A stretch of DNA of 64,000 nucleotides from the NCBI GenBank assembly GCA_905234985.1, contig CAJOJQ010000015.1:1-64000 (forward strand), given 5' to 3'. The position numbers and the translations under genes were made by a program. Below are positions 9,597-53,720 of the stretch, in pieces. Positions within the stretch are counted from its first letter, which is position 1. Each line of letters begins with the position of its first letter. The stretch comes from an uncultured Christensenellaceae bacterium. GTDB taxonomy: Bacteria; Bacillota; Clostridia; Christensenellales; Aristaeellaceae. The notes under the pieces are model-generated. The model worked only from the letters and a program-made list of their open reading frames with translations, made no database searches and was not told the DNA's origin.

Positions 9597-9766
9597 GCCA
9601 GATGTGTTGAGATAAAAGGTAGGAAGTAGGAGGTAGGAAGTAGGAGGTTTATATTGCTTGAAAAAAGCACCGTTTATGTCATCTCGCCGTTGTCAGACAA
9701 GATAAAACCTCCTACCTCCTACTTTCTACCTCCTACCTCTTTACTTCCAACCTCGAACCCATCTGG
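9597..9766. repeat. Heptad inverted-repeat element E1 (GTAGGAG type)
   Basis: The left arm 9617-9650 consists of tandem 7-mers alternating AGGTAGG and AAGTAGG. The right arm 9706-9739 is its reverse complement with about three mismatches. The centre (about 55 bases) starts with TTTATATTG. The match continues outside the heptads: CCAGATG-GTT-GAG near 9598-9611 is mirrored at about 9752-9766. It lies between guaB and an esterase gene on the same strand. Confidence 0.85.
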
Positions 9767-9815
9767 TATCGCGGCGGACCTGCTTCCGCCGCTTTTCTCA
9801 TAAAGGGGGATTCTT

Positions 9816-10715
9816 ATGCCCAGCAAGCGCAGCCAGGATATGCTGGATATGATTCAGGCGCATAAAAAAATGGCCAGCGGCATCGGCAACGGCTGGCTCA
9901 TGAAGGTGGACGCCCCCGCCGGGGCGGTGGCCCGGCTGCACGTGCGCGGCACCACGGGCGCCGCCGTGGACGGGCTGGATATGCCCGCCGTGATGGTGAC
10001 GCCGGATAAAGTGGAAATCCCCGAGGCGGCGATTCTGCATATGCACGGCGGGGCCTACGTGTCCGGCGGGCTTTTGCAGTGCCGCACCCTCATCTCCCCC
10101 ATCTGCGCCGCCGCGGGCGTGCGGGCGCTGACTTTTTCCTATCGGCTGGCCCCCCAGCATCCCTATCCCGCTCAATTGGAGGACGCGCTTCGGGCGTACC
10201 GGTATTTGACAAGCGCGGGGATTTCGCCCCGGAAAATCGCCTTTGTGGGAGAAAGCGCCGGGGGCAATTTGGCCCTGGCCCTGGCCCTGCGCCTGCGGGA
10301 CGCGGGGGAGGAAATGCCCGCCGCCATCGCCCTGCTCTCGCCCTGGGTGGATCTGGCCCAGACGGGCGAAAGCTATACGGCCCTTTCGGGGGTGGACGCC
10401 ACCCTGGACAAGGATGACCTGCTGAAAAGCGCCGTGGCCTTCGCGGGCAGCGAAGATAGGCTCCGGGACGCGGACATTTCCCCCGTCTATGCCAATTTTG
10501 CCGGGTTTCCCCCGGTGCTGATCCATTGCGGCACCCGGGAGATCCTTTTAAGCGATTCCGAAATGCTGGCCCGCGCCCTGCTTCGGGACGGCGCGGAGGC
10601 CCAGCTGGTGCGCTGGGAGGGCATGTGCCACGTGTTCCAGGCTTTCGGCTTCGAGGAAAGCAAGGCGGCTAACCGGCAGATCGGCCAGTTCTTGAAAAAA
10701 CGTTTGGAAGCCTGA
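9816..10715 (+). CDS. Alpha/beta hydrolase, HSL-type esterase/acetylesterase
   Basis: A 299-residue cytoplasmic esterase of the hormone-sensitive-lipase family. It has the oxyanion motif HMHGGAYVSGG (HGG at about 77-79) and the nucleophile elbow GESAGG with Ser147. The third-acid region reads CGTREILLSDS, so a Glu may replace the usual Asp, and the catalytic His is in GMCHVFQ near the C-terminus. The start is supported by AAAGGGGGA before the ATG. The substrate cannot be told; short acyl or acetyl esters are usual for the family. It converges with the S66 peptidase gene, with only about 27 bases between the stop codons and no obvious terminator. Confidence 0.8.
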   Translation: MPSKRSQDMLDMIQAHKKMASGIGNGWLMKVDAPAGAVARLHVRGTTGAAVDGLDMPAVMVTPDKVEIPEAAILHMHGGAYVSGGLLQCRTLISPICAAAGVRALTFSYRLAPQHPYPAQLEDALRAYRYLTSAGISPRKIAFVGESAGGNLALALALRLRDAGEEMPAAIALLSPWVDLAQTGESYTALSGVDATLDKDDLLKSAVAFAGSEDRLRDADISPVYANFAGFPPVLIHCGTREILLSDSEMLARALLRDGAEAQLVRWEGMCHVFQAFGFEESKAANRQIGQFLKKRLEA

Positions 10716-10742
10716 GTACTTGTATCATTTTATTGCAAGGAA

Positions 10743-11771
10743 TCAGGAATCAAACAAGATCGTCTGCTTTTCCGCGTCCACCATGGCCTCCACGCCGAAG
10801 GGCATGATGCAGCGGGGCTGGGCGTGGCCGATGTTGATATTGCACAGGATGGGAAGATCGGGCTTTGCGATCACTTCCCGCAGGAGCTGCCAGTATTCCC
10901 GCTCGTATGTGCGATCCATGGGCTTGCCGATGAGAACGCCGGAAACAGCGTCGAACACCCCGGCTTTTTTGAGATATTCCAGCGCCCTCCGGTATGCCGC
11001 CGGGGGCATTTTTTCTTCGCTGCTTTCCAGCAGGAGGATGCGTCCCCGCCATTCCGCCCCGTCGGGGAACAGACGGTATTTCTGGCACAGGACGGGCATA
11101 TCCGCGTAGCGCTCCCCATCCCAGAAGTCGTGCAGGGAATCAATGCAGCCGCCCAAAATTTTGCCGGAGAACACGGGCGGCCCCTGGAGCAGTACAAAGC
11201 CGCAATCCTCGTGCCCGGTGAGCGGCACGCCCACCTGGGAGGGATCGAAGCTCTTTCTTTCCTCATACCACGTATCGCTGGGGCGAATCTCCCGGATGCC
11301 GCCGGTAGCGATCAGCTCCTCAAAATATCCCCGGCTGTAGGGCGGCATGTCCGGCCCCAATTCGCACAGGTCGGCCAGGAAGCTCTGGCCGTAAAAAGTG
11401 CGAAGGCCCACCTTGTGCAGCATGAAATGGTTGATGGTGGTATCGGAGAACCCCAAAAACACCTTTTCGCAGACGGCGCTTTGCAGTTCGACGTGATCGA
11501 ACAGATACGGCAGCAGCCGGTACGTGTCGTCCCCGCCGATGGCGCAGAGGATCATATCAATTTGGGGATCGGAGAACGCTTCGAGCAAATCCTCCGCCCG
11601 CTTTTCCGGGTGTTCCTTGATGTAGTCCAGCCCTTTCAGGGCATGGGGCAGAAATTTTACCGTCAGCCCCATGCTTTCCAGCCTGCGCACCCCGACGTCC
11701 AGTTCATGCCGCACGAACGGCTCGCCGATGATGCCGCTGGACAGGCTGACGACGCCCACTGTTTTGATCAT
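10743..11771 (-). CDS. S66-family serine peptidase (LD-carboxypeptidase / MccF-like)
   Basis: S66 peptidases cut LD bonds in recycled murein peptides (LdcA) or inactivate peptidyl-nucleotide antibiotics (MccF). The 342-residue protein has the nucleophile in LGFSDTT (Ser109), a GGDD motif near residue 79, a Glu in LESSEEK and a His in NIGHAQPR, consistent with the Ser-Glu-His triad. I start at MIKTVGVV (11771) because GGAGGAG lies 9-10 bases upstream; the longer frame would overlap the preceding gene further. It is the last gene of the TetR-led minus-strand operon. The operon context, with two acetyltransferases, makes a detoxification role as plausible as murein recycling. Confidence 0.8.
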   Translation of the reverse strand: MIKTVGVVSLSSGIIGEPFVRHELDVGVRRLESMGLTVKFLPHALKGLDYIKEHPEKRAEDLLEAFSDPQIDMILCAIGGDDTYRLLPYLFDHVELQSAVCEKVFLGFSDTTINHFMLHKVGLRTFYGQSFLADLCELGPDMPPYSRGYFEELIATGGIREIRPSDTWYEERKSFDPSQVGVPLTGHEDCGFVLLQGPPVFSGKILGGCIDSLHDFWDGERYADMPVLCQKYRLFPDGAEWRGRILLLESSEEKMPPAAYRRALEYLKKAGVFDAVSGVLIGKPMDRTYEREYWQLLREVIAKPDLPILCNINIGHAQPRCIMPFGVEAMVDAEKQTILFDS

Positions 11772-11773
11772 GT

Positions 11774-20333: not shown

Positions 20334-20403
20334 CACCGTCGCCTCCTGTCGTTCCATCCTATGCGGAGATTTGTTCCGGCATGATAAAATCTTGGGGCAG
20401 CAA

Positions 20404-21055: not shown

Positions 21056-21166
21056 GGAGAGTTGAGAGTTAAGAGTTGAGAGTTGAGATAATATAGTCTG
21101 TACATTCCGGTGCTTAAATATTTCAGCTATATAAATCTCAACTTTCCGTTCTCAACTCTCCACTCT
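21056..21166. repeat. Heptad inverted-repeat element E2 (GAGAGTT type)
   Basis: The left arm 21056-21089 is tandem GAGAGTT/AAGAGTT. The right arm 21133-21166 is the complementary series. The centre (about 45 bases) begins with ATAATATAGTC, shared in part with E6 and E7. It lies between the convergent rnhA and nrdG genes, ending five bases before the nrdG stop. Confidence 0.85.
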
Positions 21167-21677: not shown

Positions 21678-21748
21678 ATATATTCCCTCTTTTCGTTTCC
21701 AGTCACCCATTTGGGGAAGAAATCAAAAGACGCAACCAACGGGGGGGC

Positions 21749-21963
21749 GTCGGGGGGACTCCCCCGACTGTAATCCGCAGTCGGCGGCGTGTACGTCGAC
21801 GAGGAGCGGTCCTTGACCGCTTCCGCTATCAATTTATGGCCGTAAAATGAGCATTTTCGGCCTTTTAGGCCGAGAATGCCATTTTACAAGAAATTGATGC
21901 CCCGCATGAAACCGGAATCCTGATTCCGATTTCATGCGTACCATTCAGCGCAAGCTGAATGGT
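21749..21963. repeat. Array of six consecutive hairpins between nrdG and the solute-binding-like gene
   Basis: Hairpins lie at 21749-21768 (GTCGGGGG/CCCCCGAC), 21765-21783 (CGACTG/CAGTCG, overlapping and exclusive with the first), 21803-21824 (GGAGCGGTC/GACCGCTTCC), 21828-21898 (nested ATCAATTT/AAATTGAT, GTAAAATG/CATTTTAC and TCGGCCT/AGGCCGA), 21904-21937 (GCATGAAA/TTTCATGC around CGGAATC/GATTCCG) and 21940-21963 (ACCATTCAGC/GCTGAATGGT). No T-run follows. No ORF is supported here. Confidence 0.8.
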
Positions 21964-21968
21964 AATTT

Positions 21969-31579: not shown

Positions 31580-31683
31580 GGAGTGAGGAGAGAGAAGTTA
31601 GGAGATAGGAGTTTTCATTGTTTCCGAGAAAACGCTGACAAAATCAAGCTCCTCTCTCCTATCTCCTATCTACTATCTCTTCC
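31580..31683. repeat. Heptad inverted-repeat element E3 (GAGATAG/GAGAGAG type)
   Basis: The left arm is 31581-31612 and the right arm 31647-31683, complementary with several mismatches. The centre (about 35 bases) contains TTCATTGTTTCC and GACAAAATC, partly shared with E5. It lies between the giant glycosyltransferase gene and comM. Confidence 0.75.
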
Positions 31684-40887: not shown

Positions 40888-40999
40888 AAAGAGTACAGAG
40901 CGCAGAGTTCAGAGTTCAGATTTATATACTTGAACACTTCGCACGCCGAACCTTGTACACCATATTATCTGAACTCTGTACTCTGAACTCTGAACTCTT
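40888..40999. repeat. Heptad inverted-repeat element E4 (CAGAGTT type)
   Basis: The left arm 40888-40921 carries tandem CAGAGTT with variants. The right arm 40966-40999 is complementary with about three mismatches in 34 bases. The centre (about 44 bases) starts TTTATATACTTG. It lies between hslU and cmk on the same strand. Confidence 0.85.
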
Positions 41000-41036
41000 T
41001 TAATCCTTTTACTTTACGACGAAAGGCGGGTTTAAA

Positions 41037-41708: not shown

Positions 41709-41710
41709 CC

Positions 41711-42412
41711 ATGGAAACGAAGAATACGCCGGAAAAGCCGGAAAAGCCGGAAAAGCTGGAAAAGCTGGAAAAGCGTGAGAAAAAGCCCGTCAGCCCCGAA
41801 AAGGAGCGCACCTTCGTCTACACCCTGGCCCGCATCGTAGCTTTCATCGGCAATCACACCATTTTCCCCGTTCGCTATCACGGAAGGGAAAACTTTGAGC
41901 TGAAAGCCCCCTACATCGCCATGTCCAACCACAACAGCGCCGTGGACCCGCTGATCCTGGCTTATCCCTGCAAAAAATACGAATTCCGCTTCGTAGGGAA
42001 AAAGGAGCTGACCCAAAATAAGTTCACCGCATGGCTGCTGAATAAGGGCCTGCACATGATCACCGTGGACCGCCACAATTCCGACCTGGCGGCCATGCGC
42101 CTGTGCATGAAAACCCTGCGGGACGGCTACGTGCTGGGCATTTTCCCGGAGGGCACCCGGCATCACGAGGATTTGATGAGCGAAGTGGAAACCGGGGCCG
42201 CCGTGCTGGCCCTGCGCGCCAAAGCGCCCATCCTGCCCGTATACATTGAGTCCAAGCCCAAGCTGTTCCGCGTCAACCACGTGTACATCGGCAAGCCCAT
42301 GGATATTTCCGATTTGGCGGCCCAGGGCTTCAATACCGACGTGGTGGAGGCCCTGTGCGGCCGCATCCGGGAAACCTTTCATCAAATGCGCAGGGACGCC
42401 GAAAAAAAGTGA
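41711..42412 (+). CDS. plsC: 1-acyl-sn-glycerol-3-phosphate acyltransferase
   Basis: Makes phosphatidic acid at the membrane. The 233-residue protein has the catalytic HX4D motif NHNSAVDP (His74, Asp79), a substrate motif around FVGKKELTQNK, and FPEGTRHH. Unusually, the N-terminus carries about 30 mostly charged residues with a repeated KPEK/KLEK unit encoded by tandem 9-base repeats (about 41732-41770), which looks like an unstructured extension made by repeat expansion. The stop codon lies within the first bases of a heptad inverted repeat. Confidence 0.9.
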   Translation: METKNTPEKPEKPEKLEKLEKREKKPVSPEKERTFVYTLARIVAFIGNHTIFPVRYHGRENFELKAPYIAMSNHNSAVDPLILAYPCKKYEFRFVGKKELTQNKFTAWLLNKGLHMITVDRHNSDLAAMRLCMKTLRDGYVLGIFPEGTRHHEDLMSEVETGAAVLALRAKAPILPVYIESKPKLFRVNHVYIGKPMDISDLAAQGFNTDVVEALCGRIRETFHQMRRDAEKK

Positions 42413-42529
42413 GAAGTTAGGAGAGAAGAGAGAGGAGTTTTTCTTGTTCAAAACGTCCGCGAAGCAGCGAAACGTTTTGTTTTGACAAAATATAATTTCT
42501 CTCTCCTATCTCCTCTCTCCTCACTTTTT
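42404..42529. repeat. Heptad inverted-repeat element E5 (GAGAGAG/GAGATAG type)
   Basis: The left arm 42404-42439 begins inside the last codons of plsC (AAAAAGTGAG). The right arm 42494-42529 is its complement with a few mismatches. The centre contains a small hairpin (AAAACGT/ACGTTTT) and TTTTGACAAAATATAA, similar to E3 and E7. Confidence 0.8.
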
Positions 42530-42554
42530 GAAAATATCTGCTCAAAGGTAATAC

Positions 42555-43034: not shown

Positions 43035-43041
43035 ACCCAAC

Positions 43042-43072
43042 AAAAAACGCTGTTTGAACGCGGCGTTTTTTT
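43042..43072 (+). terminator. Terminator after the GNAT gene
   Basis: An AAAAACGC arm pairs with GCGTTTTT around a short imperfect stem and loop, ending in a T-run. Confidence 0.7.
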
Positions 43073-43107
43073 CGTGATTGTTCAGTCGGCTGCATAAGTC
43101 GGCAATA

Positions 43108-43219
43108 GAGTTGAGAGCGGAGAGTTGAGAGTTGAGAGTTATATAGTCAATCAATGGGGTTCTTTTATGATAAACACTATATCATCTCAACTCTCAACTC
43201 TTAACTCTCCACTCTGACT
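43108..43219. repeat. Heptad inverted-repeat element E6 (GAGAGTT type)
   Basis: The left arm 43108-43140 has tandem GAGAGTT. The right arm 43184-43216 is complementary. The centre (about 43 bases) starts ATATAGTC, as in E2. CAGTC (43083) and GACTG (43215) may form an outer extension. It lies between convergent genes. Confidence 0.85.
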
Positions 43220-43240
43220 GAAAGGCCCGACCTGTTCCGT

Positions 43241-44497
43241 TTATCCCTTGATGGTTTGGCGCAGCTTGTCGGCCTCCCCTTCGGAAATGTCCCGCCCGCT
43301 GTACCGGGCCTGCTCGTACAGGTCGGTGAAGGCCCGGGCCTGGGTTTGGGTGTAGGCTTTTTCTTCGGCCAGGGCTTCCCGGGCCGTTTTGTTTTTGGCT
43401 TCGGGCCTGCGGCGCAGGAATTGCCGGTACAGATACCGCACCCGGTCCCGCCCGTTCAGGCTTTCCCATTTTTCCGGTTTTTCCCGGCGGAACACATTGC
43501 GCACCTGATCCCGGATGGTTTGGGTGCGCTCGTCCCAGTTCACGGTGCTTTCCGTTTCGTCCACGTAGTCCTCTCCCGCGTCGGCGGCGTAGCGGCGCAG
43601 GGAGGCCAGCAAACGCTGCAGCAGCCTTTTGCAGCCCTTCGCCAGCGCCCGGACCGCGAAGAAGGCGAGAATGAACACGATGATCAGGGCGGCGATCTGG
43701 AACACCTTTTCAAAGAACAGGGCCAGGGCGCTGGGTTCCGTCTCCTCCCCCATGCCGAACATATCGCCCATATCCCCGCCGCCGCCGCCCACGCCGCCCT
43801 GGGCGGGCAGCAGCCTCATGAGAAACGCCGCGATGGCGGCAATAGCTTTTTTCGTAAAGTCCCAGGCCGTCTCCACCCATACCGCCAGCCGCTTCCAGGA
43901 GGCGGCGGTTAGGGCGATGAGGAAGAACGCCGCCGCCAGCGCCGTATTCCTTTGACGGATGGCCGCGGGCGCTTTTCCCGCGCCGTGCATGCCGTCGGAA
44001 AGGCCGTGGCGGTTCTGGCACAGCACGTACAAAAACATATAAACGGCGAAGCATGGCAGCAAAAAGGGCAGCGTGCCCGAAAACACGGGCCAGCCCGACG
44101 CGGCCTGGGCAAAGAGGTGCAGGATCACGCCGCCTAACCACATCCCGATGGGCCATTCGTCCCAAACGGGCCTTTTCCAGGCGGGGGGCAGCAAAAGCAG
44201 CGCCGCCACGCAGGGAACGATCAGCAGCAGCCTGCGGGGATCAAGCGACCATTGGAACACAATGCCCCAGGCCAAAAACAGAGCGCAGCCCACCAGGGCG
44301 AAGGGCAGCCGACCCTTCATGGGCAGCAGATACCCCGCGCAGCCCCATACCCAGGCCAAAAAGGGCGGCACCAGCCACAGCACCGGCGCGTCGGAGGCAA
44401 GGAACCGCCCCGTCAGAATCCACAGGGGCATGCCGCCCAGAACCAGACAGAGGGCGGCCAGCATTTTCATGGGAAGAATCCGCAGCCTGTCCTTCAC
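43241..44497 (-). CDS. DUF4129-type multi-pass membrane protein
   Basis: The start is the GTG at 44497, behind AGGAGGG (9-base gap) at the end of the DUF58 gene; the frame open upstream is not used. The 418-residue protein has about eight hydrophobic segments (residues 10-330), then a cytoplasmic helical tail. The segment SLNGRDRVRYLYRQFLRRR and the following acidic-basic helices resemble the DUF4129 domain that often ends TgpA-like transglutaminase membrane proteins; the transglutaminase core itself is absent. A Gly-rich loop (GGVGGGGGDMGDMFGMG) lies outside or between helices. It is the last gene of the MoxR-DUF58 operon. Confidence 0.65.
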   Translation of the reverse strand: MKDRLRILPMKMLAALCLVLGGMPLWILTGRFLASDAPVLWLVPPFLAWVWGCAGYLLPMKGRLPFALVGCALFLAWGIVFQWSLDPRRLLLIVPCVAALLLLPPAWKRPVWDEWPIGMWLGGVILHLFAQAASGWPVFSGTLPFLLPCFAVYMFLYVLCQNRHGLSDGMHGAGKAPAAIRQRNTALAAAFFLIALTAASWKRLAVWVETAWDFTKKAIAAIAAFLMRLLPAQGGVGGGGGDMGDMFGMGEETEPSALALFFEKVFQIAALIIVFILAFFAVRALAKGCKRLLQRLLASLRRYAADAGEDYVDETESTVNWDERTQTIRDQVRNVFRREKPEKWESLNGRDRVRYLYRQFLRRRPEAKNKTAREALAEEKAYTQTQARAFTDLYEQARYSGRDISEGEADKLRQTIKG

Positions 44498-45573
44498 GCG
44501 GCATTTCCCTCCTTTTCCAGGCGGTACACCGTGACCGTGTTGCCGTGAAAACGAAGCTGATTGATCTTTTCCGCCATGCTCTCGCTTTCGTAGGCGGATA
44601 AAAGCAGAATATCCGTGCCCCGCAGGAAGGAAAGATCGTCTAAGAAGGAAAGGAAATTGCGGCAGCGCAGAATTTTCAGCCGGGCGAAAGCGGAAAGCAG
44701 CTCTTCTTCCCGGGCGTTGTAGCGCTCCGGCGGGTCGATGGCCGGGGTTTCCCCGCCGTCTAAGGGCATATTGGCGGCAAAGCCCGCCGCCACTCCCGCC
44801 CGCAGCACCCGCACGCATACGGTGGCGGCGATGGAAATGGCCCGCTCGATGACCGCCTGCTCGTAGTCCATCAATTCGCCCCACTGGTTTTCCGTCATCT
44901 GGGCGTTGATGACCACCAGCAATTTTGTGTCGGCGGTATAATCGTGGGTCTTTACCTGCAAAGAACCCATGCGGGCGGTGGCGGGCCAGTGAATGTCCCG
45001 CACCGCGTCCCCCGCTTGATAGCCCCGAATGCCGTTCACCAGGAAGGGGTCGGACGCCAAATGGCGGCGCACGATCAAATCCCCCTGGAGCCGGGATACC
45101 GGCAGGGGCAGGTCTTCTTCCGAGAGCAATCGGGGATACACTAAGATGCGGGCGGGGGTATACAGCTCCGTGCCTTCCCCGCCGATGCCCAGCAAATCCC
45201 CCACGGTCAGGCTCACGTTGCCCGCGTCAAAAGCGCCCCGATGAGAAAGGCGTACCTTATGCCGCCGGGTGATCTGCTGGAAGGGCCGCAGGGTGAAAAT
45301 ACTGCGGTGGTAGCGTTCGCCCCGGACGGACAGGTTATCCTGCCTGCCGAAGCGCAGATGGGGCGAGATGCGGCTTTCCGCCCGCAGCCAGGGCACGAAA
45401 AAGGGCCGGTCATTGCGGATCACCTCGATCAGCTCCGCGTCCTCCCCCTCAAAAGCCGTGGGCCGGGAAAAACGCCGCTGATAGGACAGGCCCTTGAGGC
45501 CAAAGCGTACCAGAACAAAGCGCTGCAACAGTCCGAGAACCAGCAGGGCAAGCGCCAATACCCAGCCGTTCAT
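44494..45573 (-). CDS. DUF58-domain protein
   Basis: The start at 45573 (MNGWVLALALLVLG) is in an ATGA overlap with the MoxR gene. The 359-residue protein has one to two N-terminal helices, a beta-rich middle part and the DUF58 signature GIRGYQAGDAVRDIHWPATARMG near residue 185, followed by a von Willebrand A-like region. DUF58 proteins are thought to be substrates or partners of MoxR AAA ATPases in envelope assembly or stress. Overlaps on both sides show a tight operon: MoxR, DUF58, DUF4129-like. Confidence 0.85.
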   Translation of the reverse strand: MNGWVLALALLVLGLLQRFVLVRFGLKGLSYQRRFSRPTAFEGEDAELIEVIRNDRPFFVPWLRAESRISPHLRFGRQDNLSVRGERYHRSIFTLRPFQQITRRHKVRLSHRGAFDAGNVSLTVGDLLGIGGEGTELYTPARILVYPRLLSEEDLPLPVSRLQGDLIVRRHLASDPFLVNGIRGYQAGDAVRDIHWPATARMGSLQVKTHDYTADTKLLVVINAQMTENQWGELMDYEQAVIERAISIAATVCVRVLRAGVAAGFAANMPLDGGETPAIDPPERYNAREEELLSAFARLKILRCRNFLSFLDDLSFLRGTDILLLSAYESESMAEKINQLRFHGNTVTVYRLEKEGNAA

Positions 45574-46520
45574 TTGACTTCCTCTGTGGGGGCGGGCACC
45601 TTGTCCAGGATTTCCCGGATAAAGTTTTCGTTCTCCCCCGCTTTGCCGTACAGGCCCCGCAGGATCACGCGATGCGCCAGCACCGGCACGGCCAGGGCCT
45701 TCACGTCGTCGGGAATCACATAGGCCCGGCCCTGTACGGCGGCATAGGCCTGGCTGACCCGGAGCAAGGCCAGCATGCCCCGGGGAGATACGCCGAGCAT
45801 GGTTCTGTCTTTGTTCCGGGTTTCTTCGCACAGGGCGGCGATGTACCGCATGATGGGCGCGGACGCCTCGCACCGGCTGAACAGCGTCTGGGCCTCAAGC
45901 AATTCTTCCTTTTCCGCCACGGGCTGCAAATCCTTGAGCGGTGCGCTGCGGATGAAGCGCTCCATGATGCGCAGGGCTTCCTCCCCATCCGGGTAGCCCA
46001 TGCTCAATTGAATCAAAAACCTGTCTAACTGCGCTTCCGGCAGGGGGAAGGTGCCCTGGGTTTCCACCGGGTTCTGGGTGGCGATCACGAAGAAAGGCGC
46101 GTCCAGGGGCCGGGTGACGCCGCCCTCCGTCACCTGCTTTTCCTCCATGCATTCCAGCAGGGCGGACTGGGTGCGGGGCGTGGCCCGGTTGATTTCATCG
46201 GCCAATAGGATATTGGTAAACACCGGGCCGGGCACAAAATGGAATTCCCCTTGGGCGGGCTGATACACGCTCATGCCCGTCACGTCGGCGGGCAAAAGAT
46301 CGGGGGTAAACTGCAAGCGGGAAAAACCGCAGCGCAGGGATCGGGCCAGGCTCCGGGCCAGCACCGTTTTGCCGGTGCCCGGCACGTCCTCCAACAGGAT
46401 ATGGCCTCCCGCGGTTACGGCGGACAAAATCAGGTCGATTTTCTCCCCCTTGCCCACGATCACCTTTTCCACGTTTTCCCGAATCCTCCGGGCCAGACCC
46501 GCGATATCGCCGTACTCCAT
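45570..46520 (-). CDS. MoxR-family AAA+ ATPase
   Basis: The start at 46520 (MEYGDIAGLARR) has GAGGGTG 6 bases upstream. The 316-residue protein shows Walker A EDVPGTGKTVLARSLA near residue 50, Walker B ILLADEINRATPRTQSALLE, the MoxR motif CMEEKQVT, sensor 1 FVIATQNPVETQGTFPLPEAQLDRFL and a helical lid with GVSPRGMLALLRVSQAYA. It acts as a chaperone-like ATPase with the adjacent DUF58 protein. It is transcribed divergently from the sugar-degradation genes. Confidence 0.93.
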   Translation of the reverse strand: MEYGDIAGLARRIRENVEKVIVGKGEKIDLILSAVTAGGHILLEDVPGTGKTVLARSLARSLRCGFSRLQFTPDLLPADVTGMSVYQPAQGEFHFVPGPVFTNILLADEINRATPRTQSALLECMEEKQVTEGGVTRPLDAPFFVIATQNPVETQGTFPLPEAQLDRFLIQLSMGYPDGEEALRIMERFIRSAPLKDLQPVAEKEELLEAQTLFSRCEASAPIMRYIAALCEETRNKDRTMLGVSPRGMLALLRVSQAYAAVQGRAYVIPDDVKALAVPVLAHRVILRGLYGKAGENENFIREILDKVPAPTEEVK

Positions 46521-46556
46521 CCGTATCACCCTCAAGCAATGAATTTTCTGGAAAAA

Positions 46557-46585
46557 AGTATATCATGATTTCCAGCCTCCCGCAA
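46557..46585 (-). promoter_or_regulatory. Promoter of the MoxR operon
   Basis: On the minus strand TTGCGG (46580-46585) is followed after 17 bases by TATACT (46557-46562), which also has the extended TGA. Confidence 0.7.
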
Positions 46586-46612
46586 GCGCGTCGGACAGAA
46601 AAACCACGGCTC

Positions 46613-46811
46613 ACGCTTGAATGAGAAATTGAGATTTGCAGAGGTAAGAGGTAGGAAGTAGGAGGTAGGAGGTTTTTATAGTCTGCCAAAGTGAACGAAA
46701 TCCGGTTTTCGTGTTTTTGTTTTCACAAAATAAACCTCCTACTTCCTACCTCCTACTTCCTACCTCCTACTTCCTACCTGCACAAATCCCGATTTGTGAT
46801 TCATGCGTAAA
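46613..46811. repeat. Heptad inverted-repeat element E7 (GTAGGAG type), largest copy
   Basis: The left heptad arm is 46641-46673 and the right arm 46733-46779; the right arm has about two more heptads. The symmetry continues outward: ACGC-TGAAT and GATTTG-CAG near 46614-46641 are mirrored at 46779-46807. The centre starts TTTTTATAGTC and contains TTTTGTTTTCACAAAAT. It lies between divergent genes. Confidence 0.85.
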
Positions 46812-46881
46812 ACCCTACAAAAAACACTTTCTCAACTGATGCGCATTTTTGCGCGGAAATGGTCAAAACGGGGCGACAGGC

Positions 46882-46910
46882 TTTACTTTCCCGTTCTTTT
46901 TTGATATGCT
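46882..46910 (+). promoter_or_regulatory. Promoter of the TIM-barrel/GH3 genes
   Basis: TTTACT (46882-46887) and TATGCT (46905-46910) are 17 bases apart, about 40 bases before the start codon. Confidence 0.5.
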
Positions 46911-46950
46911 AAGGGTGCGTCCTTTTTGGATGAAAAAGGGAGGGATGCGC

Positions 46951-47781
46951 ATGAACATCGGCATCCGGCTGCACGATACGGCCGAAGGCACGCTGGCCCA
47001 GCGCTTAAGCTATGCCAAAGCCCAGGGCTTTTCCTGCGCGCATCTTGCGCTGAGCAAGGCGCTGAAGGGCTTCTCCATGAACGACGCGCCCGCGCTGCTG
47101 ACGGAAGCGCTGGCCGAAAGCGTGAAGCGGGATTTCGCGGAAAAGCAAATGGACTGCGCGGTGCTGGGCTGCTATCTGACGCTGACCCAGCCCGACGAAG
47201 AAGCGCTGCAAAAGACCCGGGCCATCTACAAGGCGCACCTGACCTTCAGCCGCCTGATGGGCGCCGGGGTGGTGGGCACGGAAACGCCCGCGCCCAAGGG
47301 CATGGATCCCCATTCCGAGGAAGCGTTTCAGCTGTTCATCCGGTGCTTAAAGCCCCTGGTACACTGGGCGGAGGAGCAGAACGCCGTCCTCGCCATAGAA
47401 CCGGTGTGCGACCATATCGTGTCCACCCCGGAAAAGGCGGAGAGGATGCTGAACCTTGTCCCCTCCGATCATCTGCGCATCATCCTGGACAGCGTGAACC
47501 TGCTGTCCGCGGAGGCGGCGAAGAACCCGGACGCCCTGATCGAAGAAGCCATCCGACGCTTGGGCGACAAGGTGAGCGTGCTGCACATGAAGGATTACCG
47601 GCCCATTCAGCCCGGGGACGCCCGCGCCCAGTCCATTGCCTGCGGCCAGGGGATCATGGATTACAAGCGGCTTTTGACCTTCGCCAAGCAAAAGAACCTG
47701 CCCATGACCTTAGAGGACACCGTGCCCGAAAACGCCCAAAGCGCACGGGAGAATTTGGAAAGAATCGCGCAATCACTTTAA
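46951..47781 (+). CDS. Sugar phosphate isomerase/epimerase-like TIM-barrel protein
   Basis: The start at 46951 (MNIGIRLHDTAEG) follows GGGAGGG by 7 bases. The 276-residue protein matches the xylose-isomerase-like TIM barrel (AP endonuclease 2 family). Metal-binding residues are suggested by ENAVLAIEPVCDHI (Glu), LRIILDSVNLL (Asp), VLHMKDY (His) and the final MTLEDTVPE (Glu). It probably isomerises or epimerises a keto sugar or inositol-type compound. It stands 25 bases before the GH3 gene, so the two are likely co-transcribed. Confidence 0.82.
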   Translation: MNIGIRLHDTAEGTLAQRLSYAKAQGFSCAHLALSKALKGFSMNDAPALLTEALAESVKRDFAEKQMDCAVLGCYLTLTQPDEEALQKTRAIYKAHLTFSRLMGAGVVGTETPAPKGMDPHSEEAFQLFIRCLKPLVHWAEEQNAVLAIEPVCDHIVSTPEKAERMLNLVPSDHLRIILDSVNLLSAEAAKNPDALIEEAIRRLGDKVSVLHMKDYRPIQPGDARAQSIACGQGIMDYKRLLTFAKQKNLPMTLEDTVPENAQSARENLERIAQSL

Positions 47782-47806
47782 CATATACAGAAATGGGGTA
47801 TAGATC

Positions 47807-49906
47807 ATGAACCGCGAAGAAGCACGCAAGCGCGCCAAGGCGCTGGTTGACCAGATGACCATGGAAGAAGCCGCTTCCCAATTGAGCTATCAGGCTCCCG
47901 CCATCGAACGCTTGGGCGTGCCCGCCTACAACTGGTGGAATGAAGCGCTGCACGGCGTGGCCCGCGCGGGCATGGCTACCATGTTCCCCCAGGCCATCGG
48001 CATGGCCGCCACCTTCGATACCGGGCTGGTGGAGGAATTGGGCGACGTGGCTTCCACCGAAGGCCGCGCCAAGTACAACGCCGCTTCCCGCCACGGCGAC
48101 CGGGACATTTACAAGGGCCTCACCTTCTGGAGTCCCAACATCAACATTTTCCGCGACCCCCGCTGGGGCCGGGGCCAGGAAACCTTCGGCGAGGACCCCA
48201 CGCTGACCGGCGAGATCGGCGCGGCTTACGTGCGCGGTTTGCAGGGCAAGGGCGACGTGCTGAAAGCGGGCGCCTGCGCCAAGCATTTCGCGGTGCATTC
48301 CGGGCCCGAGGATCTGCGCCACGAGTTCAACGCCCTGGCCAGCAAAAAGGACATGAACGAAACCTACCTGCCCGCCTTTGAAAAGCTGGTGAAGGAAGCC
48401 AAGGTGGAGTCCGTCATGGGCGCGTACAACCGCACCAACGGCGAACCCTGCTGCGCCTCCAAGGAACTGATGGGTTATTTGAAGGAATGGGGCTTCGAGG
48501 GCCATTTCGTGTCCGACTGCTGGGCCATTCAGGATTTCCACCAGTTCCATCACGTCACCGACAACCCCGTGGATTCCGCCGCCATGGCCATCAACGCGGG
48601 GTGCGACCTGAACTGCGGCTGCACCTATGAAAAGCTGGTGGCCGCCGTGATGGCGGGCAAGGTGAAGGAAGAAACCATCCGGGAAAGCGCCGTGCGCCTG
48701 TTCACCACCCGGTACATGCTGGGCATCATGGGCGAGGGCAGCGAATATGACGCCGTCCCCTTCACCGTGGTGGAGTGCGAAGCGCACCAGAAGAAAGCCG
48801 ATCTGGCCGCTTTAGAGGGCTGCGTGCTGCTGAAAAACGACGGCATGCTGCCCCTGGATGAAAACAAGATCAAGACTTTGGGCGTCATCGGCCCCAACGC
48901 CGATTCCATCGCCTCCCTGGTGGGCAATTATCACGGCACGTCCTCCCACTATATCACCGTGCAGCGGGGCTTCCAGGAAGCGCTGGCCGGAAAAGCCCGG
49001 GTATTGAGCGCCCTGGGCTGCCACCTCTATAAAGACAAGGCGGACAATCTGTCCCAGTTCAACGACGACCGGCTGGCCGAGGCCCTCACCGTGGCGGAAA
49101 ACAGCGACGCCGTGGTGCTGGTGGTGGGCCTGGACGAAACCCTGGAGGGCGAGCAGGGCGATACCGGCAACCCCTACGGCTCCGCCGACAAGCGGGACCT
49201 GCTGCTGCCCGCCTGCCAGCGCCGTCTCATGGGCGAAGTGCTGAAAGTGGGCAAGCCCACGGTGATCGTACTCACCGCGGGCAGCGCCATTGATTTGCAG
49301 GGCGCGGGCGAAAAGGCAAACGCCGTGCTGGCGGCCTGGTACCCCGGCGCCCAGGGCGGCAAGGCCGTGGCGGATCTGATTTTGGGCCGCGTCTCTCCCT
49401 CCGGCAAGCTGCCCGTCACCTTCTACCGCAACGAGCAATTGGATGAAATGCCTGATTTCACCGATTACGCCTTAAAGGGCCGCACCTATCGCTACTTCCC
49501 GGGCAAGCCCCTGTATCCCTTCGGCTTCGGCCTCACCTACGGCGACGCCGCCGTGGAAAAAGCCGAACTGACCCAGGAGGAAGGCAAGTACATCGTCGAT
49601 ATCGTGGCGCGGAACTTAGGCAAGCGTGACACCCAGGACGTGGTGCAGGTGTACTGCCAGAACGAGGGCAGCGAAAACGCCCCCCTGAATCCCCGGCTGA
49701 TTGCTTTCAAGCGCGTGTTCATCCCCGCCGGGCAGGAGGCCCACGTTTCCATCCGCCTGGACACGGAAGCCTTTAAGGTGGTCAACGAAGCGGGTGATAA
49801 GATCAACGAAGGAAAAATCGTCCTGTACGCGGGCATGGGTCAGCCGGACGAACGCACCAGGGAACTCACCGGCCACGAAGCCGTGAAGCTGATACTGAAC
49901 GATTGA
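47807..49906 (+). CDS. Glycoside hydrolase family 3 (beta-xylosidase/beta-glucosidase)
   Basis: A 699-residue cytoplasmic enzyme without signal peptide. The N-terminal TIM-barrel has the substrate motifs NWWNEALHGVAR, GQETFGEDP, CAKHFAVHSGPE, and the nucleophile Asp237 in GHFVSDCWAI. A second alpha/beta domain (about 340-530) and a C-terminal fibronectin type III-like domain (about 590-695) follow. The NEALHG and SDCWAI patterns are closer to beta-xylosidase-type GH3 enzymes, but the sugar specificity is not certain. It would cleave imported oligosaccharides. A terminator follows, separating it from the next operon. Confidence 0.9.
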   Translation: MNREEARKRAKALVDQMTMEEAASQLSYQAPAIERLGVPAYNWWNEALHGVARAGMATMFPQAIGMAATFDTGLVEELGDVASTEGRAKYNAASRHGDRDIYKGLTFWSPNINIFRDPRWGRGQETFGEDPTLTGEIGAAYVRGLQGKGDVLKAGACAKHFAVHSGPEDLRHEFNALASKKDMNETYLPAFEKLVKEAKVESVMGAYNRTNGEPCCASKELMGYLKEWGFEGHFVSDCWAIQDFHQFHHVTDNPVDSAAMAINAGCDLNCGCTYEKLVAAVMAGKVKEETIRESAVRLFTTRYMLGIMGEGSEYDAVPFTVVECEAHQKKADLAALEGCVLLKNDGMLPLDENKIKTLGVIGPNADSIASLVGNYHGTSSHYITVQRGFQEALAGKARVLSALGCHLYKDKADNLSQFNDDRLAEALTVAENSDAVVLVVGLDETLEGEQGDTGNPYGSADKRDLLLPACQRRLMGEVLKVGKPTVIVLTAGSAIDLQGAGEKANAVLAAWYPGAQGGKAVADLILGRVSPSGKLPVTFYRNEQLDEMPDFTDYALKGRTYRYFPGKPLYPFGFGLTYGDAAVEKAELTQEEGKYIVDIVARNLGKRDTQDVVQVYCQNEGSENAPLNPRLIAFKRVFIPAGQEAHVSIRLDTEAFKVVNEAGDKINEGKIVLYAGMGQPDERTRELTGHEAVKLILND

Positions 49907-49913
49907 TCTTCCT

Positions 49914-49944
49914 GGAGCGCCGCGCATGCGGCGTTCCTTTTTTT
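49914..49944 (+). terminator. Terminator of the GH3 gene
   Basis: GGAGCGCCGC and GCGGCGTTCC form a stem with a GCAT loop, followed by seven T. Confidence 0.85.
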
Positions 49945-49955
49945 GCAGAAAACTA

Positions 49956-49985
49956 TTGACAGCCCGGGCAAAAAATGGCTATCAT
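49956..49985 (+). promoter_or_regulatory. Promoter of the GH105-like/GH28 operon
   Basis: TTGACA (49956-49961) and TATCAT (49980-49985) are 18 bases apart. Confidence 0.65.
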
Positions 49986-50017
49986 AGAATCAATCATGTA
50001 TGATTGGAGGGCTGCGC

Positions 50018-50917
50018 GTGGAAGAAAGCAGGGAGGCCGCGGTAGCGGCGCTGCTGAACAGTTCGTTATGGGAAAGCGTGCCCGGCGATATGCTGAAAGG
50101 CTGCATAGCCATGTATCGCGCCACGGGCGAGGAACATTACAAAACCGCCGTTCTGCTTCATCTGTATTCCATCCTCCTGACAAAATGGCGGCTGCCTTCC
50201 AACCACGCGTGGTTCTCCTGCTACGGCGGATATGGAAACGCGCTGCTGTTTGCGCTGGATGAAACGGGAGACGAACGCTTTCAAACGGCTGCCGGCGAGA
50301 TTTTTGAGCTGTTCATGCCGCGGATCGACCCCGGTGATTATTTAGTGAGACCGTATTTGGACAAATCCGAAGTCGGCTCCATGGCGGCTTTTTTAACCGC
50401 TTACGATACCCGCTTTGGCAAAAAACAGGTCTACAAGGAAATTGCCTGCCGTTTCAGCGACGCGCACCGGATGTTCTTTGTGCCGGACGAGGGGCATTAT
50501 CGCATCTCGGAACTCAGGCAGCCCGGAGAGGGCGCGTTTTCCGACGATGGGGTCATGCTTTGCGCTTTGATCGACACGCTGGAAAGCATGGATATGCAAA
50601 TCTACGAACACTGGCGCTTGCTGGCCGATCAGTTTTTGACCGCCGTGCAGGGGCTTGGGCGGCATATGGATCGAAGCGGCGTATTGCGGTCCATGGTGGA
50701 AGCCCCGGACGATATCGCCAGCGCGCGGGTTCTGTATGCCCTGCATAAGGGCGTACGGCTAAAGCTGCTGGACGAAGAAAAGTATCTGCCCATCGCCGCG
50801 AACACCTACGCCGCGTGGCGGAAAGAACTAAACGAACGCACCCTCTGCATGAATATCGAAGGCGTGTGCATGATGGCCAATGGGGAAATGAAAATGGGGG
50901 AGGAAAAAAGGAAATGA
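50018..50917 (+). CDS. GH105/GH88-like alpha/alpha-barrel protein (putative unsaturated uronyl hydrolase relative)
   Basis: The start is the GTG at 50018, behind GGAGGG (6 bases); the in-frame ATG at 50000 lacks a ribosome site. The 299-residue protein is all-helical, with repeats such as HAWFSCYGGYGNALLFALDETGD and GAFSDDGVMLCALIDTLE, which resemble the six-helix-hairpin barrel of GH88/GH105 enzymes that remove unsaturated uronic acids from pectin fragments. It is shorter than typical GH105 (about 370), and I cannot place both catalytic Asp residues with confidence. Its last bases overlap the GH28 start, so the two are translationally coupled. Confidence 0.55.
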   Translation: MEESREAAVAALLNSSLWESVPGDMLKGCIAMYRATGEEHYKTAVLLHLYSILLTKWRLPSNHAWFSCYGGYGNALLFALDETGDERFQTAAGEIFELFMPRIDPGDYLVRPYLDKSEVGSMAAFLTAYDTRFGKKQVYKEIACRFSDAHRMFFVPDEGHYRISELRQPGEGAFSDDGVMLCALIDTLESMDMQIYEHWRLLADQFLTAVQGLGRHMDRSGVLRSMVEAPDDIASARVLYALHKGVRLKLLDEEKYLPIAANTYAAWRKELNERTLCMNIEGVCMMANGEMKMGEEKRK

Positions 50918-52464
50918 AATGCGTCTTTCTTTCTTCCCGGAGCTGCACCGTCCTGCTGGACGCGGAGGGGGATTATTACGCGAAAGCGCCCCGCCGTCTG
51001 TTCCTGAACGGAGAAGAACTGCCGGTAGAAAACCGTTCCGTCTTTTCCCTCTTTGGCCTATGGCCTGACACGGCATACACGCTGGAAGCCTATTTAGGCG
51101 ATGAAAAAGAAAGTGAAATCACCTTCCGCACGGAAAAGGAATTCTGCACCCTGAACGTGAAACGCTTCGGGGCCGAGGGCGACGGGGAAAAGGATGATAC
51201 CAACCCCATTCAGGCCGCCATTCTGTCCTGTCCTCCCGGCGGGCGGGTGCTGATCCCGGCGGGGGATTACAAAACCGGCCCCCTGTTCCTGAAAAGCCAT
51301 ATCTCCCTTGAATTCAAGCCCGGCGCGCGGCTGGCATTGAAAACGGACAGGACAGAATTTCCCATCCTGCCAGGTATGACCCGCACCACCGACGAGGAGG
51401 GCGAATACCTTTTAAGCTCCTGGGAGGGCAACCCCCTGGACGCTTTCGCCTCCGCCCTCACCGGCATCGGCGTGGAGGACGTGAAGCTCATCGGCCCCGG
51501 CGTGGTGGACGGCTGCGCCCCGGTGGGCGACTGGTGGGTGAACCCCAAGATCAAAAAAGGCGCTTACCGGCCAAGGCTGTTCTATTTGAAAGACTGCAAG
51601 GATATCACCGTCCAGGGTCTCACCTTCCGCAACTCCCCCGCCTGGAACCTGCATCCCACCTTTTCAGAAAACCTGTCCTTCCTGAATGTGCGGGTGGAAG
51701 CGCCTGCCGTCAGCCCCAATACCGACGGCTTCGACCCGGAAAGCTGCAAGCACATCCGCATGTTTGGAACCAAATTTTCCGTGGGCGACGACTGTATCGC
51801 CATCAAAGCCGGAAAAATTTACATGGGCATGAAGTACCACGTGCCCTGCCAGGACATTGAAATCGCCTGGTGCTGCATGCTGGACGGTCACGGCGGCGTC
51901 ACCGTGGGCAGCGAAATGGCGGGCGGCGTACACAACGTGCGGGTGCATCACTGCTATATGCGGGGCAACGACCGGGGCCTGCGCATCAAAACCCGCCGGG
52001 GCCGGGGCAAGTACGCCGTGATCGACGATATTCTGTTCGATCACGTGCGCATGGAGGGCGTGAAGGCTCCCCTGGTGGTCAACGCCATGTATTACTGCGA
52101 CCCGGACGGCAAAACGGATTACGTGCAGAGCCGGGAAAAACAGCCCGTGGACGATACCACCCCCACCGTGGGCAGCATCCGTTTCGAGCATGTAAACGCC
52201 ACCGGCTGCGAAGCCTGCGTGGGCTATATCTTAGGCCTGCCGGAGCGGCCCGTCAAAGAAATTTTGCTGAAAGACTGTGAATTCTCCTTCCATCCCGACG
52301 GAAAATTCATGGTCCCCGCCATGGCAAACGGCGTGGAAGCCTGCCAGCGCCGGGGCCTGATCGCCCGGTTCGTGGACAGCATTTCCCTCACCAATGTGAG
52401 CATGGAGGGCGTTGAAGGAGAAGAACTGGATTTCCAGGACTGCGGACAGGTTGAAAACCGATAA
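50914..52464 (+). CDS. Glycoside hydrolase family 28 (polygalacturonase-like)
   Basis: A 516-residue protein without signal peptide. After a fibronectin-type-like N-terminal part (about 1-75) the right-handed beta-helix starts at FGAEGDGEKDDTNPIQAAI. All GH28 motifs are present: SPNTDGFD (Asp271), GDDCIAIK (Asp292/293), GHGGVTVGSE (His326) and RGLRIKT. It hydrolyses galacturonic-acid-containing polymers or oligomers; cytoplasmic forms usually act on imported oligogalacturonides or rhamnogalacturonides. The start at 50914 is an ATGA overlap. The genes kduI and kduD downstream take up the unsaturated uronate products. Confidence 0.92.
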   Translation: MKCVFLSSRSCTVLLDAEGDYYAKAPRRLFLNGEELPVENRSVFSLFGLWPDTAYTLEAYLGDEKESEITFRTEKEFCTLNVKRFGAEGDGEKDDTNPIQAAILSCPPGGRVLIPAGDYKTGPLFLKSHISLEFKPGARLALKTDRTEFPILPGMTRTTDEEGEYLLSSWEGNPLDAFASALTGIGVEDVKLIGPGVVDGCAPVGDWWVNPKIKKGAYRPRLFYLKDCKDITVQGLTFRNSPAWNLHPTFSENLSFLNVRVEAPAVSPNTDGFDPESCKHIRMFGTKFSVGDDCIAIKAGKIYMGMKYHVPCQDIEIAWCCMLDGHGGVTVGSEMAGGVHNVRVHHCYMRGNDRGLRIKTRRGRGKYAVIDDILFDHVRMEGVKAPLVVNAMYYCDPDGKTDYVQSREKQPVDDTTPTVGSIRFEHVNATGCEACVGYILGLPERPVKEILLKDCEFSFHPDGKFMVPAMANGVEACQRRGLIARFVDSISLTNVSMEGVEGEELDFQDCGQVENR

Positions 52465-52496
52465 TTCGACGCGTCCATCGAAATTGGTGAAATGAA

Positions 52497-52525
52497 TTGA
52501 AAAATCGCTTCCCCCATGATACAAT
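52497..52525 (+). promoter_or_regulatory. Promoter of the small hydrophobic ORF / kduI
   Basis: TTGAAA (52497-52502) and TACAAT (52520-52525) are exactly 17 bases apart. Confidence 0.7.
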
Positions 52526-52529
52526 AAAA

Positions 52530-52594
52530 CCGCCGCGAGGGTTTTCCAAGCGGCGAGGGTGAAGCGGTGAGCGGCCTCCCGGAAAGGAGGCGAT
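52530..52594 (+). promoter_or_regulatory. Structured leader with an SD-sequestering hairpin
   Basis: The leader has a CGCCGC/GCGGCG stem (about 52531-52555) and a second hairpin GCCTCC-cggaaa-GGAGGC (about 52575-52592), whose 3' arm is the Shine-Dalgarno sequence of the ORF at 52598. Such occlusion is typical of toxin mRNAs of type I toxin-antitoxin systems. Confidence 0.6.
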
Positions 52595-52597
52595 TCA

Positions 52598-52690
52598 ATG
52601 ACATTGATGGAAGTCATCGCGTTATTGAACTTAATCGCGACAGTTACTTTAATCGTTGTTACAGCAACAAAAAACCCCGCTTGTCAACGT
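52598..52690 (+). CDS. Small hydrophobic peptide, holin-like/type I toxin-like (possibly decayed)
   Basis: A perfect AAAGGAGG ribosome site lies 7 bases before ATG. The peptide begins MTLMEVIALLNLIATVTLIV: a short polar start, then one membrane helix, much like the 'putative holin-like toxin' peptides of clostridia, which are usually 30-40 residues long with a Lys-rich tail. Here no stop codon follows the helix; the frame stays open to 53026 inside kduI in another frame. I list only the helix plus a few residues (the end is arbitrary). Either a frameshift or mutation removed the tail and stop, or the peptide is a leader whose long tail has no function. kduI starts at 52746. Confidence 0.45.
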
Positions 52691-52745
52691 GAACGGCAAA
52701 ACGCACAAGATAATAGACCATCATATTTCAAGGAGGAGAAGCCCC

Positions 52746-53588
52746 ATGGACATTCGCTATTCCTGCAACCAGCGCGATTTCAAGCGCTACACCACCGAAG
52801 AGACCCGGAAGGAATTCCTGATCGAGACCCTGTTTGTCAAAGACGAAGTGACCGCCGTCTACAGCCACGTGGACCGGATGGTGACCCTCGGCGTGATGCC
52901 GGTGTACGAAACTGTGTCCATCGACAAGGGCATCGACGTCTGGCACAATTTCGGCACGGAATACTTCTTAGAGCGCAGGGAGTGCGGCATGTTCAACGTG
53001 GGCGGCCCCGGGCGGGTGATCGCTGACGAAAACGTATATGACCTGGGCTACAAGGACTGCCTGTATCTCACTCGGGGCGCAAAATACGTGGCCTTTGAAT
53101 CCAGCGACCCCAAGAACCCCGCCAAGTTCTATATCGTGTCCGCTCCCGCCCATTGCAGCTATGAAAACAGGCTGATCAAGATCGCCGACGCCGCCAAGAA
53201 GCCCTTAGGCGCGCTGGAAACCAGCAACAAGCGGGTCATCAACCAGTTCATTCATCCCTCCGTTTTGAAAACCTGCCAGCTTTCCATGGGCATGACCGTG
53301 CTGGAACCCGGCTCCGTTTGGAACACCATGCCCGCCCACACCCACGAGCGCCGCATGGAGGTATACTTCTACTTTGAAGTGCCGGAAAACAACGTGGTGT
53401 TCCACATGATGGGCGAAGGCAACGAGACCCGCCATATCGTGATGCAGAACGAACAGGCCGTCATCTCCCCCTCATGGAGCATCCACGCGGGCGCCGGCAC
53501 CAGCAATTATACCTTCATCTGGGCCATGGGCGGCGAAAACCAGGCCTTTGACGATATGGACAACATCCCCACCACGGAGCTGAGGTAA
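52746..53588 (+). CDS. kduI: 5-dehydro-4-deoxy-D-glucuronate isomerase
   Basis: Converts 4-deoxy-5-keto-uronate from pectin breakdown into 2,5-diketo-3-deoxygluconate. The start at 52746 (MDIRYSCNQRDFKRYTTEE) has AAGGAGG upstream. The 280-residue length is standard. The zinc site is seen in MPAHTHERRMEVYFYF (two His and Glu) and SPSWSIHAGAGTSNYTFIW (His). The next enzyme, KduD, is encoded downstream beyond a heptad repeat element. Confidence 0.95.
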   Translation: MDIRYSCNQRDFKRYTTEETRKEFLIETLFVKDEVTAVYSHVDRMVTLGVMPVYETVSIDKGIDVWHNFGTEYFLERRECGMFNVGGPGRVIADENVYDLGYKDCLYLTRGAKYVAFESSDPKNPAKFYIVSAPAHCSYENRLIKIADAAKKPLGALETSNKRVINQFIHPSVLKTCQLSMGMTVLEPGSVWNTMPAHTHERRMEVYFYFEVPENNVVFHMMGEGNETRHIVMQNEQAVISPSWSIHAGAGTSNYTFIWAMGGENQAFDDMDNIPTTELR

Positions 53589-53593
53589 TCATC

Positions 53594-53720
53594 AAGTAGG
53601 AAGTAGGAGGTAGGAGGTAGGAGGTTTTATTGTATTCATTTTTGTCTGTCAATGCTTTGCAATGACATATGATTCATCATTATAAACCTCCTACCTCCTA
53701 CTTCCAACCTCCTACCTTAT
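53594..53720. repeat. Heptad inverted-repeat element E8 (GTAGGAG type)
   Basis: The left arm 53594-53626 is tandem AGTAGGA/GGTAGGA. The right arm 53684-53718 is complementary with one or two mismatches. The centre (about 57 bases) starts TTTTATTGTATTC. It lies between kduI and kduD, probably within one transcript, and ends 22 bases before the kduD ATG. Confidence 0.85.

Follow-up and report, generated by a model that had tools for sequence, protein, structure and literature searches.

Mirrored heptamer elements in an uncultured Christensenellaceae bacterium: probable foldback-type MITEs with exchangeable cores

Intergenic tandem heptamers are known from the cyanobacterial STRR repeats, which run as direct arrays, and the REPIN/RAYT and BIME elements are small intergenic repeats in mirrored layout around a variable spacer. 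The TAACTGA repeats of Beggiatoaceae are also direct, with one inverted set out of 170 in the genome described (PMC4679880). BrickBuilt of Porphyromonas gingivalis is a short intergenic non-coding miniature inverted-repeat transposable element (MITE) with inverted-repeat ends and an internal 23-bp minisatellite (PMC4596501). Here we describe eight inverted elements, E1 to E8, in the first 64,000 nucleotides (hereafter the window) of contig CAJOJQ010000015.1 of an uncultured Christensenellaceae bacterium (GenBank assembly GCA_905234985.1), together with the family to which they belong in this genome (the source genome) and in its relatives. Each element has a core in which ~3-8 tandem heptamers, often followed by an inner motif near ATATAGTC, lead into a variable centre and a mirror arm.

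We read the family, with a probability of roughly 0.68, as short non-autonomous foldback-type MITEs whose cores are swapped by ectopic gene conversion. The copies are dispersed, orthologous sites are occupied in one genome and empty in another, part of the copies in one class of outer inverted repeat (class B) have target duplications, and heptamers are gained or lost in single arms. Furthermore, different cores stand within one and the same orthologous frame in sister species. The outer frames and the exchange of cores go beyond the earlier sequence-only reading of this stretch, which had described the eight elements and offered several possible natures for them.

Anatomy and spread of the family

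The eight elements and one empty target site are listed below without strand; G numbers denote genomes of relatives and L numbers loci obtained from the genomes.

E1, 9597..9766: GGTAGGA-type core with short outer inverted ends CCAGATG/CATCTGG; the orthologous site is empty in G010.
Empty class B target site, 20385..20394: TAAAATCTTG; G025 has a framed element here.
E2, 21056..21166: GTTGAGA-type core; the orthologous G025 copy is probably inverted.
E3, 31580..31683: GATAGGA-like core; starts 1 bp past the stop codon of the upstream open reading frame (ORF).
E4, 40888..40999: GTTCAGA/GTACAGA-type core; seven other species have GTTGAGA, GTACAGA or AAGTTCT cores in this gap.
E5, 42404..42529: GATAGGA-like core that overlaps the upstream ORF at its end; G010 has no element here.
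E6, 43089..43225 (core 43108-43219): GTTGAGA type with class A frame traces on both sides; belongs to a many-copy subfamily.
E7, 46606..46816: GGTAGGA-type core framed by class B repeats, ACGGCTCACGCTTGAATGAG ... GATTCATGCGTAAAACCCT; 8/10 flank bases match; G025 lacks such an element here.
E8, 53594..53720: GGTAGGA-type core; G025 has the same element with the right arm one heptamer shorter.

A strict array detector (75% or more identity at offset 7 over 28 bases) finds 13 period-7 arrays in the window, every one within E1-E8, and dinucleotide shuffles give no array in nine of ten cases and a single one in the tenth. A looser detector, which additionally demands a complementary partner array, returns 18 arrays over the 64 kb, some of them partnerless, and the only paired elements are E1-E8; shuffles give no paired element (three shuffles each, 18 other 20-kb stretches). 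All eight elements are real and carry the plan that the sequence-only reading had given them. The extents proposed there also hold, apart from E7, which is longer and framed by a dispersed outer inverted repeat, and E6, which has traces of another frame. Folded as single DNA strands, E1-E8 surpass their shuffles (z -3.1 to -8.8; 1 of 200 shuffles equals E3 and none of 200 equals any other element), only parts of E1 and E7 being taken in this test. The heptamers are not uniform, being GTTGAGA in E2 and E6, GGTAGGA/AGTAGGA in E1, E7 and E8, GTTCAGA/GTACAGA in E4 and GATAGGA-like in E3 and E5.

Among 55 elements the core types GTTGAGA, GGTAGGA, GTTCAGA, GTACAGA and GATAGGA are represented, with centres mostly ~40-65 bases long and similar inside subfamilies. 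The inner motif ATATAGTC, sought in the centre's first 16 bases, is matched at 6 or more of its 8 positions at 58 of the 110 arm ends, compared to 8% in shuffles (GTTGAGA 36/58 ends, GGTAGGA 9/22, GTTCAGA 4/7, GTACAGA 2/4). Many cores show heptamer arms but no frame, while others are enclosed by an outer inverted repeat of one of at least two classes. The class A repeat, AAGGACACTTTAAGTCA, was found by aligning E6-like elements (22 rows, representing 20 distinct copies from three genomes); most of these 20 copies carry it, and it surrounds GTTGAGA, GGTAGGA, GTTCAGA and GAAAAGT cores. The class B repeat, ACGGCTTACGCATGAAT, encloses E7, other heptamer cores or unrelated GC-rich hairpins, and its pattern is matched 13 times in the source genome, 16 times in G025 and 18 times in G010. 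Among the framed elements of both classes, many copies share their terminal inverted repeats. Loci L180-L209 were picked via frame A and L001-L030 via the heptamer pattern, so that the framed share is derivable from neither set. A candidate outward extension of frame A, GTTCAGTCG, was discarded; its occurrence at L195 fits better with the remains of an older GAAAAGT element. A heptamer element with an unusually long centre lies at L261 11430-11683 and is also present in G025, with a GTGTGGA-type element at this place in G010.

A strict family pattern of three consecutive heptamers GNTNRRA has 100 matches at 69 loci of the source genome, and copies occur in relatives as well, so that the further copies which the sequence-only reading had proposed to search for do exist. 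This pattern undercounts the family, E2 being the sole window element that it matches. The density of about one element per 8 kb noted earlier is confined to the window: seven paired elements (14 detector rows, one per arm) were detected in ten 20-kb pieces taken from the beginnings of further contigs of this genome, or ~1 per 29 kb, and the window is element-dense compared with this sample. By extrapolation, the genome of 3.57 Mb perhaps holds from ~125 (7 per 200 kb) to ~200 elements (15 per 264 kb). The strict pattern is matched in 12 of 60 genomes, namely the source genome, 10 of 28 other members of the genus, one of seven from other genera of the family and none of 24 from the order's other families. 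G004 leads with 150 matches, followed by G025 (107), the source genome (100), G023 (73), G003 (45) and G010 (44), and the distribution within the genus is patchy. The reversed pattern also picks up genuine heptamers (18 and 25 in the source genome), and shuffles were for this reason used as control. An exact 20-base inner junction retrieves 50 stretches of the GTDB collection, a search from which the source genome was possibly excluded; these come from five metagenome assemblies that bear the name Clostridia bacterium or Clostridiales bacterium, and two of the five carry the label goat reticulum. E7 has no match in the plasmid and phage collections. G040, from another family of the order, has 12 matches to the heptamer pattern read backward and none forward, and may represent another heptamer family.

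Exchange of cores and signs of mobility

Orthologous sites were compared between the source genome and the sister species G025 and G010, with collinear identities to the source genome of ~87-97% and ~81-95%, respectively. Sites s1-s9 lie on contigs C16 and C14 of the source genome, the L-numbered sites are frame A or E6-like copies, and the co-occupied sites form a non-random sample. The heptamer type is the same at 10 of the 16 sites co-occupied in G025 (E2, E8, s1, s3, s4, s6, s7, s8, s9 and L184) and different at six (E4, L183, L193, L195 and the L169 and L017 sites). Ten sites are co-occupied in G010, two with the same type (E6, and E2, which was scored as such by its position between collinear matches) and eight with a different one (E4, E8, s6, s7, L185, L193 and the L169 and L171 sites). 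Left uncounted for G025 were E7, L190 and s2 (no heptamer core) and s5, L189 and L191 (ambiguous). Those uncounted for G010 were E1, E5 and s3 (no element), E7, s4 and L183 (other palindromes), L184 and L189 (other inserts), L191 (part of a GAAAAGT arm), and L167 and L172 (no element in the source genome); E3 stands outside all comparisons. The gap occupied by E4 holds a GTTGAGA core in G025 and G010, GTACAGA in G013 and G023, and AAGTTCT in G006, G009 and G019, the remaining species displayed having short gaps or other inserts (in G004 another palindrome). At E8 the source genome and G025 share one element, while the core is of the GTTGAGA type in G010 and of the GTACAGA type in G023.

The most informative case is the L017 site (C7:47.9 kb of the source genome), with a GTTGAGA core in the source genome and a GTAGGAG core in G025, and with agreeing flanks and frame. 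The frame variants CGCATAAAT and CCCAAGC occur at this site in both genomes and in no other class B locus displayed. As two independent insertions would not share these variants, we conclude that an inherited frame has had its core replaced. Differing cores within class A frames that occupy the same place are seen at L183, L185 and the L169 site, and in decayed form at the L171 site. At L195 the copy of the source genome is apparently nested in remnants of a GAAAAGT element, and G025 has the GAAAAGT element alone. The arms themselves also change: heptamer numbers differ between the source genome and G025 at s1, s4, s9 and E8, by whole repeat units and in single arms. The centre of E2 matches that of G025 at 36 of 49 bases as reverse complement and at 28 in direct orientation (shuffles at most 25), suggesting that E2 was probably inverted in place in G025. 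Another dispersed palindrome, CTGGGGGAAACCGCTCTTTG/CAAAGAGCGGTTTCCCCCAG, present at window 61529-61587 and at L305 and L337, is found in G010 at two sites where the source genome has heptamer elements.

Mobility is indicated most clearly for class B. Its right end was called at 16 distinct loci, at some of them in both directions, and 12 were used for the duplication test after leaving out L386, L408 and L410 (apparent wrong ends) and L382 (cut flank). The two flanks are alike in 8-10 of 10 bases for five of the 12 copies (L403 and L400 10/10, L391 and L393 9/10, E7 8/10), compared to two of 132 cross-pairs of mismatched ends, which reach 8 and none above; on this ground class B is MITE-like. 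At L403 the flank repeat is 12 bases long (GCAAAGCCATCC), and the class B framed GTTGAGA element of G025, for which the site is empty at window 20385-20394, has TAAAATCYTG on both sides. No such element stands at the E7 site in G025 or at the E1 and E5 sites in G010, and the source genome is likewise without one at L167, L172 and L177. The MITE-like option of the sequence-only reading is borne out by the further copies, by these occupied and empty orthologous sites, and by class B duplications above the cross-pair control. Of the comparison of orthologous sites proposed there, the presence/absence part showed both states, and the duplication part gave well-matching flanks in five of the 12 class B copies only.

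Other repeats share this genome. At window 21742-21965 stands a palindromic array of another kind (CGCATGAAACCGGAATC/GATTCCGATTTCATGCG and others), which is missing from the orthologous site in G025 and G010 but has dispersed matches in both, and further repeats with many matches in these two genomes are L260 5153-5414 (~260 bp) and L261 2560-2648 (~90 bp). The only gathering-level Rfam match in the window is a 6S RNA at 22824-23011 on the minus strand (RF00013, 68.7 bits).

The genomic position of the elements was assessed with a purpose-written ORF caller for 66 copies of the source genome, including loci chosen by pattern or frame. None lies inside a called ORF; 44 stand between tandem, 20 between convergent and two between divergent genes, compared to 211, 45 and 39 when every pair of neighbouring genes in the larger stretches is counted (Fisher p 0.017 and 0.007). 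The median gap to the flanking stop codon is 11 bp. On our preferred reading, a transposase supplied in trans and recognising the frame would move the framed copies, and cores would be exchanged among copies of the same class by ectopic gene conversion acting via these short frames. Replication slippage would lengthen and shorten the arms and arm-arm recombination would keep them mirror-like, the two together explaining both the changes in heptamer number and the inversion. Insertions may persist mainly just past stop codons because genes and promoter regions presumably tolerate them less. If this holds, differing cores in one inherited frame make it possible to test ectopic gene conversion between very short repeats directly, the sister species serving as ready-made before/after pairs, and they are a warning that an intergenic hairpin can hold its position while its entire sequence is replaced.

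Weighing the explanations

Several observations weigh against a foldback-type MITE with gene conversion of cores. The class A frames share only ~12-17 bp, which is short for homologous gene conversion, and none of six class A copies has flanks alike in at least 8 of 10 bases. Seven of the 12 class B copies lack a convincing duplication, and none is seen at E1 and E5. Frame B has no match in G023 in spite of the many heptamer cores there and cannot account for all copies; the bare cores are without a demonstrated route of movement. The inner motif is missing from about half of the arm ends, including all four of the GATAGGA type, and the E2 centre is partly symmetric, which raises the direct score and blurs the inversion. 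No autonomous partner or transposase with matching ends was found, a negative made weak by the draft genomes and short loci. For class A, the source genome has 43 end matches with at most 2 mismatches (pairs ~150-170 bp apart, the others single and several within genes) and no transposase gene with matching ends; for class B, none appeared among the loci listed from four genomes (source genome, G025, G010 and G023), unpaired ends being checked within the 30 loci obtained. Moreover, short repeats are where assemblers err, and as the genomes are drafts, in part metagenome assemblies, any single exchange could be a mis-join. Assembly error is unlikely as a general explanation, since like exchanges occur at several sites in different assemblies.

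The position of the elements raises the question of a function at gene 3' ends, where hairpins acting as mRNA end protectors, RNase III sites or operon insulators might be selected for their fold while the sequence turns over. The short distance to stop codons, the scarcity between divergent genes, the strong folding and the position kept despite sequence change are all consistent with such RNA hairpins. However, several orthologous sites lack an element, E1-E8 have no match to any Rfam family, and an RNA role does not need frames with target duplications. Nor do the elements resemble typical intrinsic terminators, a candidate that was rejected on the centres of ~40-65 bases (the terminator scan covers loops of 3-8 only) and on the scarcity of T past the hairpin, the next 8 bases holding no more than 4 T in the seven window elements inspected (4 in two, 0-2 in the rest). 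We regard RNA hairpins as an unlikely account overall, and the RNA-hairpin and chromosome-structuring roles entertained by the sequence-only reading were not demonstrated. Portable two-way promoters, with a heptamer (TTGAGA) and an inner motif (TATAGT) in each arm read inward and driving the next gene, were considered because sigma-70-like sites are enriched in the elements: 33 of 136 strands (68 elements) carry one, compared to a shuffle mean of 9.7 (range 5-15), and four of the ten promoter-like sites in window 40000-54000 fall in E6 and E8. BrickBuilt MITEs are reported to carry promoters in both directions (PMC4596501). Such a function would be compatible with mobility, but consensus matches are weak evidence, the shuffles break the heptamer order, 103 of the 136 strands are without a site and the elements are rarest exactly between divergent genes, leaving it rather improbable, slightly more so than the hairpins.

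Other possibilities concern how the cores change. A site-specific recombinase acting on the inverted frames could swap and invert the enclosed cores, in agreement with constant frame boundaries around differing cores and with the one probable inversion; the inverted E2 has no recognised A or B frame, however, and class B frames also enclose unrelated GC-rich hairpins, and such cassette exchange appears doubtful, at around one chance in ten. In a bolder version, the frames would be fixed docking sites at which a dedicated recombination activity, working on hairpins or frames, replaces, inverts and re-mirrors cassette cores in place along the whole chromosome, with lineage-specific heptamers in the manner of telomere repeats; we consider this speculative and put it on a level with the promoters. 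Immobile STRR-like heptamer microsatellites mirrored by replication errors would account for the variable copy number of the heptamers, but not for an inner motif enriched across several heptamer types, for dispersed subfamilies with similar centres and frames, or for insertions with target duplications, and are strongly disfavoured. Least probable of all is movement by a Y1 (HUH) transposase in the manner of REPIN/RAYT elements. The elements are indeed small, intergenic and mirrored with a variable spacer, the genus has Y1 genes, some adjoining GTAG-type palindromes, and the heptamer carriers G003 and G020 each have one. Yet PF01797 is unmatched in nine of the 11 heptamer-carrying genomes of the genus (the source genome, G004, G025, G023, G010 and four poorer carriers), which include five of the six richest, and the arms are heptamer tandems rather than GTAG-footed palindromes. 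In sister species, L095-L098 combine Y1 transposase matches with GTAGGGG-type palindromes, possibly a RAYT/REPIN system of the genus.

Comparison with known systems

No bacterial family with a mirrored-heptamer foldback plan was listed in searches of an open-licence library, in keeping with the sequence-only reading, which knew of no named family of this structure in Clostridia, and a review of prokaryotic MITEs does not contain the words 'tandem', 'foldback', 'heptamer', 'Clostridi' or 'nested' (PMC10969869). With the STRR and TAACTGA repeats the elements share intergenic tandem heptamers at many loci, but those are direct, whereas each of E1-E8 has its mirrored partner array, a distinction already drawn from the sequence. 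They differ from REPIN and BIME in that five of the six richest genomes have no Y1 transposase and in that the arms are not GTAG-footed. The nearest bacterial case in print that we have seen is BrickBuilt, in which one direct array lies between small inverted ends, whereas here the arrays themselves form the mirrored arms.

The closest likeness in plan is to the foldback transposons of eukaryotes (Tetris, Galileo and Drosophila FB), with which the elements have in common inverted arms of tandem repeats, a variable middle and an arm length that varies by units. Foldback elements are far longer than ~100-210 bp; the present ones are bacterial, of that small size, built from 7-bp units and have cores exchanged inside frames. 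Tetris has tandem-repeat inverted repeats around a middle domain without a conserved ORF, and its target duplications are reported as 8-10 bp (PMC4079207). The flank likeness seen here extends over 8-12 bp and in part of the class B copies only. The resemblance is one of plan, with no link in sequence or transposase, and descent is not claimed. To our knowledge the foldback plan is otherwise known only from eukaryotes; if our reading is correct, it arose in bacteria too, at a size (~100-210 bp) that makes its mechanism tractable.

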